Assembly: GCF_021134715.1 (NCBI RefSeq)
Contig: NC_060023.1
Coordinates: 9,052,001-9,116,000 of the forward strand
Length of the DNA stretch: 64,000 bases
Reading direction: 5' to 3'
Source of the DNA: Daphnia pulex
Lineage: Eukaryota > Arthropoda > Branchiopoda > Diplostraca > Daphniidae
Both the position numbers and the translations under genes were made by a program. Below the pieces are notes generated by a model that was given only the letters and a program-made list of their open reading frames with translations, did no database searches and was not told where the DNA came from. Below are positions 46,189 through 48,524 of the stretch, piece after piece; position 1 is the stretch's first letter; the number at the start of each line of letters is the position of its first letter.

Positions 46189-48524
46189 TTAGTGATTGCC
46201 ATTTGTGACGGAGGTTCCGTTAGTAACGGCAGCCGAATCTTTAGCTGCACCGCACTCACTGCGATAACCGAGAGGGTTCATCGTTTGCCAACGCCAGAAA
46301 TCTTCACCTGTAACACAAAAAGCATTAGTTGATTGGCTCCAGAATTTGTTTTAGAAGGCCACCAACGAGTCAAATGCGGATTACGTCAAAATCTAACAAC
46401 ATGAAATAAGAATTTCACAAATAGAGAACTTGATTTTTAAGAACATCCGCAATTGGCCCGTTAATAGTGGCAGCGTCTGACTATTTGCTACGTCACAAAA
46501 GGGTAGTGAATACTGGGAAGGATAAAACTAACAAAATTGCCAAGGTCGTGTCGATTTTTATAGTCACACTTACACATATGTTCGAGAGTGAAACGAGGAG
46601 TCCATCCGAGCTCTGTTTTGGCGCGCTCTCCGTTCGAGTACATGGCGCTGATGTCTCCTTCTCGTCTGGGTTTGAGTTCATAGGCCACAGTCATTCCCGT
46701 CACCTTACCGAAAGTCTGCACGAGCTGGATGACTGACACTCCCACGCCAGAGCCCAAATTGAACGTCTGCAGTATTAAAGTAAGCAGGAGAGTTGGGGGT
46801 AGAAAGTTTTGACTAAAATAACGGGTTGGTGTCTAGGCGGGGGAGGAGTTTCTCTAATCATGTTTCGTGCATGTAGTAACGGACAGACGCTGCCTTTGTT
46901 GCCTTTTGATTAATTGGTGGGAGCAAAACCGTGACTTACACATGCGTACGGCGTCGTACTTGGCATGCCAGTTGAGCTCACTGACAGCCAACTGGGCATC
47001 ACAGACTAGAGTATCGACGTCACCGACACGTCGACCAGCCCAAACGAATGGCACTTTAGTGTTGGTCGTTTTCTCAAACAAATCGATCAGCTCCAACACT
47101 GACAAACCCTTACCCAGGCCCAGATTGTAGACCTGTATCAAGTCTGTCACGTTACTAGGACTGTCCATCACACACACGTTCAGGGGAAGTTCCGCCCGCC
47201 AATTTAAGCTATTTGAAATGTCTAAAATTATACCCGATAGCGAAGTTTGTCCTTTTCAACCTTGGCTAATGCTGCAACGTGGCCAGAGGCCAAATCCATT
47301 ACGTGAATGTAGTCTCGAACGCCTGTTACATTTAAGGTTGATCAATAGCTGAATACTGTTACAAAATTGTAATTGTCATACCAGTTCCGTCAGGAGTGTT
47401 GTAGTCGTCACCAAAAATAGTCAAAGAAGGTTTATTTCCAAGAGCTACTTGAGCGATATAAGGCATCAAATTGGAATAGGGCTTGGTGGGATCCTCGCCG
47501 ATACGGCCAGAGGGATGAGCACCAACAGGATTGAAATATCGGAGAGAGCAAATATTCCAGCGCTGCATACAAAAATTTAATTGTAACGATTTGAACATGT
47601 AACGTGATAATAATTTCATACCTCATCTGAACGACTGAGATCCATCAACATCTCTTCGATTAGGTACTTGGTTCGGCCGTAGACGTTTGTCACATTTCCA
47701 ATAGGGCTATCTTCTGTGATGGGAAGGCGCTCAGGGTTACCGTAGACGCAACAAGAGCTGGAAAACACTAGCTGATAGCATTCGTGGGCTTTCATAACCT
47801 AAACCAATCCAGGTGAAAATAATTGAAAGTGAAATAAAAAGTCGGTTAGTATATTGTCGGATACGTGTGGGAGGAAAATGAAAAAAAGAAGCCATGTCAT
47901 GGTATATCAACAGATGTGAACGCACTTGGTGTTCAAATAAATTTGCGTTTCTAGTGACGTTCATAGCGAACGTTTGAAACCATCTGTTACCTCAACTATA
48001 GTCGTCCCACGTAATAGTATTTTAAACCAGTTTGAAGCTCAGACAACTTTGTTTCAAAGTCAAATTGTGTTGTTGTGAAGGGAAAAGGCCATTTACCTCT
48101 AACAAGTTGATTGTTCCAACTACATTGTTTTTGTAGTACAGGAGTGGAACTTCCATCGATTCCCCAACAGCTTTCATGGCAGCAAAATGAATGACACAAT
48201 CAATTTTATGCTAAATAAATTAGAAAAACTGGTCACAACTGTAACAAACAAAAGTTTAAAAGAAGTAAAAATAAATATTACTTGGCTGAAAATTTTGTTT
48301 AGTCTCTCATAATCTAAGAGATCGCACTGATAGAAGGTAACTTTCTTCCCAGTTATTTCTTCGACTCGTTCCAGGCTAGGAGCTGTGCCTTTTTCTCCAT
48401 TAACAGAGTTGGCAAAGTTATCGCAGGCAATAACCTTGTAACCAGCTTCCAACAGCTCAACCACACAGTGGCTGCCGATGTATCCAGCTCCTCCAGTTAC
48501 AAAAATTGTCTGAAATTTGGCCAT
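46189..48524 (-). CDS. GALE: UDP-glucose 4-epimerase with two alternative C-terminal exons (371 aa)
   Basis: Minus-strand exons: 48524-48282, 48210-48097, 47798-47622, 47562-47382, 47322-47234, then either 47132-46940 (alternative A) or 46766-46574 (alternative B), then 46307-46189. It interconverts UDP-glucose/UDP-galactose and, in animals, often UDP-GlcNAc/UDP-GalNAc, with bound NAD. Seen: NAD-binding GGAGYIGSH, catalytic SSSCCVYG and YGRTK (Y-x3-K), [18 protein letters not shown], and [18 protein letters not shown]. Both alternative exons are 193 nt, phase 0 to 1, and encode the R-R-x-G-D sugar-binding segment followed by ELxW. Using both or neither breaks the frame. A TTTTTTATAG acceptor just before the ATG suggests a 5' UTR intron. 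In the catalytic segment, CC replaces the usual AT after SSS. Confidence 0.95.
46574..46766 (-). other. GALE: GALE alternative exon B
   Basis: 193 nt, acceptor CTGCAG at 46769-46767, donor GTAAGT after 46574. It encodes [20 protein letters not shown] and, further on, [13 protein letters not shown] then ELGWTPRF. Residue 310 is Met, aligned with human Cys307. It is closer to vertebrate GALE around the R-R-E-G-D motif than exon A. Confidence 0.9.
46940..47132 (-). other. GALE: GALE alternative exon A
   Basis: 193 nt, acceptor ATACAG at 47138-47133, donor GTAAGT after 46940. It encodes [20 protein letters not shown] and, further on, [13 protein letters not shown] then ELNWHAKY. Residue 310 is Leu, aligned with human Cys307. 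It is about one third identical to exon B by hand count (21 of 64 residues), without gaps. Confidence 0.9.

Follow-up and report, generated by a model that had tools for sequence, protein, structure and literature searches.

Tandem homologous exons that are spliced in a mutually exclusive manner have been described for Dscam, Mhc, 14-3-3zeta, PKM and Pfk, where exons of equal length and phase exchange one segment of the protein and are frame-incompatible when joined (PMC3228551; PMC5740500). Length, phase, splice sites and homology are the sequence features that define such exons (PMC3228551). In human, 377 of 629 clusters are frame-incompatible, and reads joining the exons occur in 83 of these 377 (PMC5740500). 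Enzymes are among the known hosts, including PKM and PFKP; some of the exons change zinc-binding or catalytic residues, and in CRMP and a fly nucleotidase ligand-binding or catalytic residues are altered (PMC7954323). A splicing study of Daphnia pulex put mutually exclusive exons at 2%, and its main text names no epimerase (PMC7318467).

UDP-glucose 4-epimerase (GALE) is known for a gatekeeper position in its sugar pocket, occupied by C307 in human, Y299 in Escherichia coli and L320 in Aspergillus nidulans. A small gatekeeper (Cys or Ser) goes together with turnover of UDP-GlcNAc/GalNAc and a Tyr or Leu with little or none, while a single residue exchange at this position can move the activity (PMC6668579; PMC3792076). 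For the Leu-gated A. nidulans enzyme, interconversion of UDP-GlcNAc and UDP-GalNAc was not found (PMC3792076). Drosophila requires both GALE activities to survive (PMC3359975).

Here we describe a GALE gene in 64,000 nucleotides of D. pulex DNA (the whole stretch analysed, hereafter the window, on contig C7). We consider it highly probable that an old tandem exon duplication has left this gene with two mutually exclusive exons, A and B, which would give two full-length isoforms differing in about 64 C-terminal residues of the UDP-sugar-binding segment. The pair resembles the systems above in being tandem, homologous, equal in length and phase, confined to one swapped segment and frame-incompatible when joined. 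It differs from them in that the host is GALE, that the swapped part holds UDP-binding residues together with the specificity gatekeeper, and that its exclusive use is predicted here from DNA; in PKM, by contrast, the swapped segment is an allosteric and subunit-contact region (PMC7954323). No mutually exclusive splicing of GALE was found in the open-access literature searched, and within that literature the statement of an earlier note on this DNA, that none had been described, stands. The exon pair is thus apparently new for GALE and ordinary in kind, and annotation may already show both isoforms.

Gene layout and reading frame

A complete GALE gene lies on the minus strand of the window, with its start codon at 48524-48522 and its stop ending at 46189 (Table 1). 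All seven introns have GT-AG borders. The coding sequence ahead of exon A or B amounts to 804 nt, and the exon preceding them ends in phase 0; the last exon contributes two bases that complete a Cys codon begun by either A or B, since both end in phase 1. Beside the catalytic Ser the gene on C7 reads SSSCCVYG, as against SSSATVYG in human GALE and in a second Daphnia gene on contig C5, which may be a further sign of a divergent enzyme.

Table 1. Positions of the GALE features in the window and of the second GALE gene.
Feature	Position	Strand	Remarks
GALE coding exon 1	48282..48524	-	243 nt; start codon; GGAGYIG NAD motif; open reading, GT donor
GALE coding exon 2	48097..48210	-	114 nt; AG/GT borders; C5 paralogue exon likewise 114 nt
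GALE coding exon 3	47622..47798	-	177 nt; catalytic Ser and Tyr-x-x-x-Lys by homology (human GALE alignment)
GALE coding exon 4	47382..47562	-	181 nt; C5 paralogue exon likewise 181 nt
GALE coding exon 5	47234..47322	-	89 nt; phase 0 end at ...KLRYR
Intron before exon A	47133..47233	-	101 nt; candidate pairing partners for the central intron element within 47178-47142
Exon A	46940..47132	-	193 nt; phase 0 to 1; corresponds to human GALE 266-329; gatekeeper Leu
A-B intron	46767..46939	-	173 nt; candidate pairing element 46894-46866 (suggestive only)
Exon B	46574..46766	-	193 nt; phase 0 to 1; protein segment as in exon A; gatekeeper Met
CAGACGCTGCC	46469..46479	-	perfect 11-nt complement of 46894-46884 (A-B intron); suggestive only
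Intron after exon B	46308..46573	-	266 nt
Last GALE coding exon	46189..46307	-	119 nt including stop; EDFWRWQ...
Second GALE gene	C5:9001000-9007500, 3820 to about 600 within this stretch	-	single exon copy, shifted intron, gatekeeper Ser

The earlier note had placed the shared donor at 47234, exon A at 47132-46940, exon B at 46766-46574, the shared acceptor at 46307 and the stop at 46189, and these positions proved exact to the base. Its description of two exons of 193 nt that enter in phase 0, leave in phase 1 and keep uninterrupted frames is borne out by the predicted proteins: inclusion of A alone or of B alone gives 371 residues in each case, with internal stops in neither. When A and B are joined, the frame shifts inside B, and the resulting stop at codon 353 precedes the last junction by 134 nt; when both are skipped, the protein is truncated at codon 278 by a stop that lies 27 nt inside the last exon. 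A stop is likewise reached when one of the three introns flanking A and B is retained, immediately so in the case of the intron upstream of A. The frame-lock argument made previously is upheld by these outcomes, and its corollary that exactly one exon must be chosen is right for the making of GALE protein but goes too far for splicing itself, as frame alone cannot prevent the spliceosome from joining A to B.

Both exons carry a GTAAGT donor, and pyrimidines occupy 8 of the 20 bases upstream of the acceptor of A and 14 of 20 upstream of that of B. The splice sites had been called good on both copies, which is accurate for the GT-AG borders and the donors but not for the poor acceptor tract of A. 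Altogether the pair shows the equal length, phase, splice sites and homology expected of mutually exclusive exons, as well as a non-productive joined form, the latter by frame only. In RNA we would expect both junction pairs, 47234-47132 with 46940-46307 and 47234-46766 with 46574-46307; transcripts with A joined to B would be removed by nonsense-mediated decay, and those lacking both would give a dead truncated protein.

Food for discussion is whether A and B might be joined on purpose and the product decayed, such that the choice of exon would also set the amount of GALE. The sequence gives nothing that favours such deliberate double inclusion, and we regard this regulated unproductive splicing as quite improbable, while noting that it is compatible with mutually exclusive use rather than opposed to it. 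Joining is sterically free (a 173-nt intron, with both exons U2-like), a stop lying 134 nt ahead of the final junction is a typical decay target, and the human clusters with joining reads mentioned above (83 of 377; PMC5740500) indicate that frame-incompatible exons can be joined.

Other features of the window are given here for completeness. A retroelement (41407-45833, minus) lies on the strand of the GALE gene, some 350 bp downstream of the stop codon of that gene. Its overlapping open reading frames (ORFs) match a tyrosine-recombinase-type integrase (PF00589) as well as a reverse transcriptase (PF00078), and we take this combination to be DIRS-like. Insect-cuticle chitin-binding matches (PF00379) in the ORFs 8646-9161 (+), 21456-23261 (-), 26373-27425 (+) and 33639-34184 (+) suggest a cluster of cuticle proteins, although the second and third ORFs fall short of the Pfam cut-off. 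Two adjoining ORFs at 29531-31154 (-) match ankyrin repeats, the first of them (29531-30604) below the Pfam cut-offs, and possibly represent one broken or intron-split gene.

Conservation and history of the two exons

As proteins, A and B are identical at 21 of 64 codons, in agreement with the roughly one-third identity estimated beforehand; as DNA they share 89 of 193 nucleotides (46%). A tblastn search of A against B returned E = 3e-12. The assignment of both exons to the UDP-sugar-binding C-terminal segment, also claimed in the earlier note, is supported by homology: in an exon-level scan of the whole genome with the galE profile, A scored 51.6 bits (profile positions 251-322), B 62.4 bits (252-323) and the corresponding exon of the C5 paralogue 58.2 bits. 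A profile of the segment alone, built from 80 bacterial GalEs plus human GALE, gave 68.0 bits for A and 87.5 bits for B. The full isoforms lie far above the cut-off of the galE model TIGR01179 (262.3 bits), with 415.1 for A, 426.3 for B and 393.7 for the C5 paralogue. Against the narrower model NF007956 (cut-off 394), isoform A falls just under with 389.6, and B and the C5 paralogue reach 409.5 and 411.4.

The comparison set throughout comprised human GALE and 80 bacterial GalEs, the best 80 among the matches listed. In the 80 bacterial sequences, 16 of the 64 segment positions show at least 95% constancy; we refer to these as near-invariant in the bacterial set. A, B and the C5 paralogue each keep 15 of the 16. 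In 5000 neutral simulations taken to the A-B nucleotide identity, starting from B with uniform substitutions and indels ignored (a simple model, but with a large margin), a mean of 2.9 and a maximum of 8 of the 16 were kept, and 363 of the 5000 sequences stayed open. A counting estimate for A-B (dN 0.79, dS 2.3) was saturated and is not relied on. Chance homology of A and B is ruled out by the profile scores, the simulations and the tblastn result.

A natural neutral control came from a DNA search in which a portion of the A-B intron served as query and gave a 76% match on contig C10, a different contig from that of the parent gene. The match (C10:5536000-5540500, about 2009-2264 of that stretch) is truncated at both ends and corresponds to window positions 46871-46635, the 3' part of the A-B intron plus the first 132 nt of exon B. 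Identity is 84 of 103 in the intron and 98 of 126 (about 78%) in the exon, where the matches are spread about evenly over the three codon positions (31, 33 and 34 of 42 each) and the frame is lost through a 10-nt insertion and a 6-nt deletion. This dead copy thus appears to have lost its frame at about 78% identity, whereas A and B remain open at 46%. Because A and B each keep 15 of 16 near-invariant positions where neutral change left at most 8, and because the dead fragment has decayed, purifying selection on both is well supported, and both probably are, or until recently were, selected coding exons.

The words "until recently" leave room for the possibility that one exon alone is in use and the other is a recently retired relic, intact by inertia. 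Exon A would be the candidate, given its poor pyrimidine tract and its lower scores on both profiles. Yet A, although 46% identical to B in nucleotides, has an open frame, a GTAAGT donor and 15 of the 16 near-invariant residues, while the dead C10 fragment of exon B is out of frame at about 78% identity, and we judge the relic explanation improbable.

It might also be asked whether the pair is a product of misassembly, or of the collapse of two genes or haplotypes, as GALE-like sequence is not unique in this genome (the C5 gene, the C10 fragment). We think this extremely improbable. Exon A with its upstream intron, exon B, and the introns after A and after B each have one place of full identity; the only further match listed is the 76% fragment; 89 of 193 identical nucleotides are too few for alleles; and the borders of A and B are common to each other but not to the C5 exon. 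At E up to 1, the genome-wide DNA search returned no second full-length place for exon B or for exon A plus the intron upstream of it, and at E up to 0.001 it returned none for the intron downstream of B. This search was not fully sensitive (the exon B query missed the C10 fragment), so that "one place" refers to full-length copies only. As full-length A and B each occur at one place, an assembly duplicate was rejected.

Contig C5 carries a complete second GALE gene of nine coding exons and 372 residues with a single copy of the segment. It is like the C7 gene in the phase of the last intron and in two exon sizes (114 and 181 nt), and unlike it in the single segment copy, the Ser gatekeeper and the intron before the segment, which lies 26 nt earlier and in phase 1. 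Before the segment the two genes are identical at 148 of 255 residues. Within it, A matches C5 at 26 and B at 25 of 64 positions, and identity to human GALE is 26 for A, 29 for B and 32 for C5. Neither a remnant of a second exon around the C5 exon nor a third copy in the C7 introns was detected (best extra matches E 0.07 or worse). Since A and B share one border and the C5 intron is displaced by 26 nt, the comparison favours tandem duplication inside the C7 gene over separate imports.

A maximum-likelihood tree was built for the segment from 64 columns and 44 rows (A, B, C5, human GALE and 40 of the 80 bacterial sequences; bootstrap unsettled), and in it A joins the C5 exon at 97/89, and not B. 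Topology tests on the same segment did not reject A with B (p 0.405), nor A, B and C5 together (p 0.159). Given the very long branches of A and B, we draw no history from this tree. Mutual exclusivity, though very likely, is a prediction from sequence, and the points against it include the weak acceptor of A, the shortfall of A on NF007956 and a tree that does not pair A with B.

Splice geometry and intron pairing

How one exon could be chosen over the other was considered from the geometry of the introns. A pattern search in the last 60 nt of the A-B intron placed the candidate branch point before B at 158 nt from the donor of A; steric exclusion, which depends on a distance below about 50 nt, was rejected. 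So was U2/U12 incompatibility: the donors and acceptors of both exons are ordinary GT-AG and U2-like, and inspection revealed no U12-type donor.

Pairing between introns offers a lead. An 11-bp perfect helix between 46894-46884 in the A-B intron and 46479-46469 in the intron after B (best helix -21.4 kcal/mol) would loop out exon B. Among 300 Markov-model pairs none reached its energy and 4 its length; among 600 random window triples of the same geometry 6 reached the energy (6 of the 339 that were GC-matched), and 19 contained a perfect helix of at least 11. The duplex of the whole A-B intron with the whole downstream intron was matched by 15 of 200 shuffles. The stretch 46888-46866, which overlaps the first arm of this helix in part, can form a duplex with the intron ahead of A, at positions within 47178-47142 that take in the acceptor region. 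Of 200 dinucleotide shuffles 1 equalled this upstream whole-intron duplex, but 42 of the 600 window triples did so too (41 of the 339 that were GC-matched), and 27 of the 600 equalled its best single helix. None of the 600 triples, a null drawn from the one 64-kb window with three intron pairs examined, reached both the energy of the downstream helix and that of the upstream duplex. The pairing probability of the downstream helix is about 1 in folds of 981 and 1251 nt and 0.01 in a fold of 2751 nt, and forcing the upstream pairing costs 6.8 kcal/mol. Rfam and tRNA scans gave no matches.

We take the helix that would loop out B as suggestive only, a fragile and context-dependent lead. Competing pairings around 46894-46866 might bias the choice between the exons, the downstream one looping out B and the upstream one covering the acceptor region of A; a helix hiding B could offset the stronger acceptor of B, given the poor pyrimidine tract at A. 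The arrangement is comparable to the docking-selector and bidirectional pairing of Dscam exon 6 and srp, in that exon B would be looped out by a helix joining its two flanking introns and an overlapping stretch could also pair with the upstream intron, as in the two-sided arrangement of srp (PMC6071210). It is unlike them in that the shared element of the C7 gene sits between the two exons and the statistics of the upstream pairing are weak.

Gatekeeper residues and predicted substrates

Alignment with human GALE and the 80 bacterial GalEs places the catalytic Ser, Tyr and Lys and the UDP-binding Arg and Asp in the C7 enzyme, the roles of all but the Lys being assigned by homology (PMC6668579). 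The Lys of Tyr-x-x-x-Lys we take to be catalytic. With these residues kept and both isoforms far above the TIGR01179 cut-off, the gene is like other UDP-glucose 4-epimerases. Both exons and the C5 paralogue have R299/R300, D303 and V277 (human numbering) in common with human GALE and with every one of the 80 bacterial sequences; in the GalE of Bifidobacterium, UDP is held by the equivalent residues Arg292 and Asp295 (PMC6668579).

The C7 gene is unlike its relatives at the gatekeeper, which is Leu in A and Met in B, as against Cys or Ser in human and 72 of the 80 bacterial enzymes. The C5 paralogue has Ser and human GALE Cys; the bacterial residues are Cys in 64, Ser in 8, Tyr in 4, Phe in 2 and Ala and Val in 1 each. 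At the neighbouring position 308, human and B have Tyr, A has Val, and the bacteria have Tyr (62), Trp (11) or Phe (7). The small Cys or Ser that characterizes GALE group 2, the enzymes competent for UDP-GalNAc (PMC6668579), is thus present in C5 and absent from both A and B. As a side observation, a scan of viral contigs returned distant epimerases only; 75 of 80 loci passed an RRxGD filter, and in these 75 relatives Leu was the commonest gatekeeper (33, with Met at 0), unlike in the bacterial set, where Cys prevails (64 of 80).

A simple switch between a small and a large gatekeeper was rejected, and no simple UDP-GalNAc switch is predicted, because Leu and Met are both bulky. The simplest prediction is that both C7 isoforms epimerise UDP-Glc/UDP-Gal and that the C5 enzyme accepts this pair and UDP-GlcNAc/GalNAc alike. 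The exchange of A for B more likely tunes kinetics, pocket, stability or regulation than toggles the use of UDP-GalNAc, for which the Ser-gated C5 paralogue seems better placed than either isoform. Some activity of isoform B on UDP-GalNAc is nonetheless conceivable, Met being flexible. A bolder proposal, which we find tentative and rather unlikely as a whole, is that one GALE gene makes two enzymes by swapping a wall of the UDP-sugar pocket, including the gatekeeper (Leu or Met), under competing intron pairings, with the Ser-gated C5 gene keeping the UDP-GalNAc reaction.

If this were true, the two jobs done by one GALE in fly and human would be shared out over three forms of the epimerase, with splicing deciding between two of these. 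Two GALE genes in an arthropod, with splice-swapping of a pocket segment in one of them, would be a natural experiment separating the GALE activities, and the exon pair would add to the reported enzymes whose mutually exclusive exons alter ligand-binding or catalytic residues.
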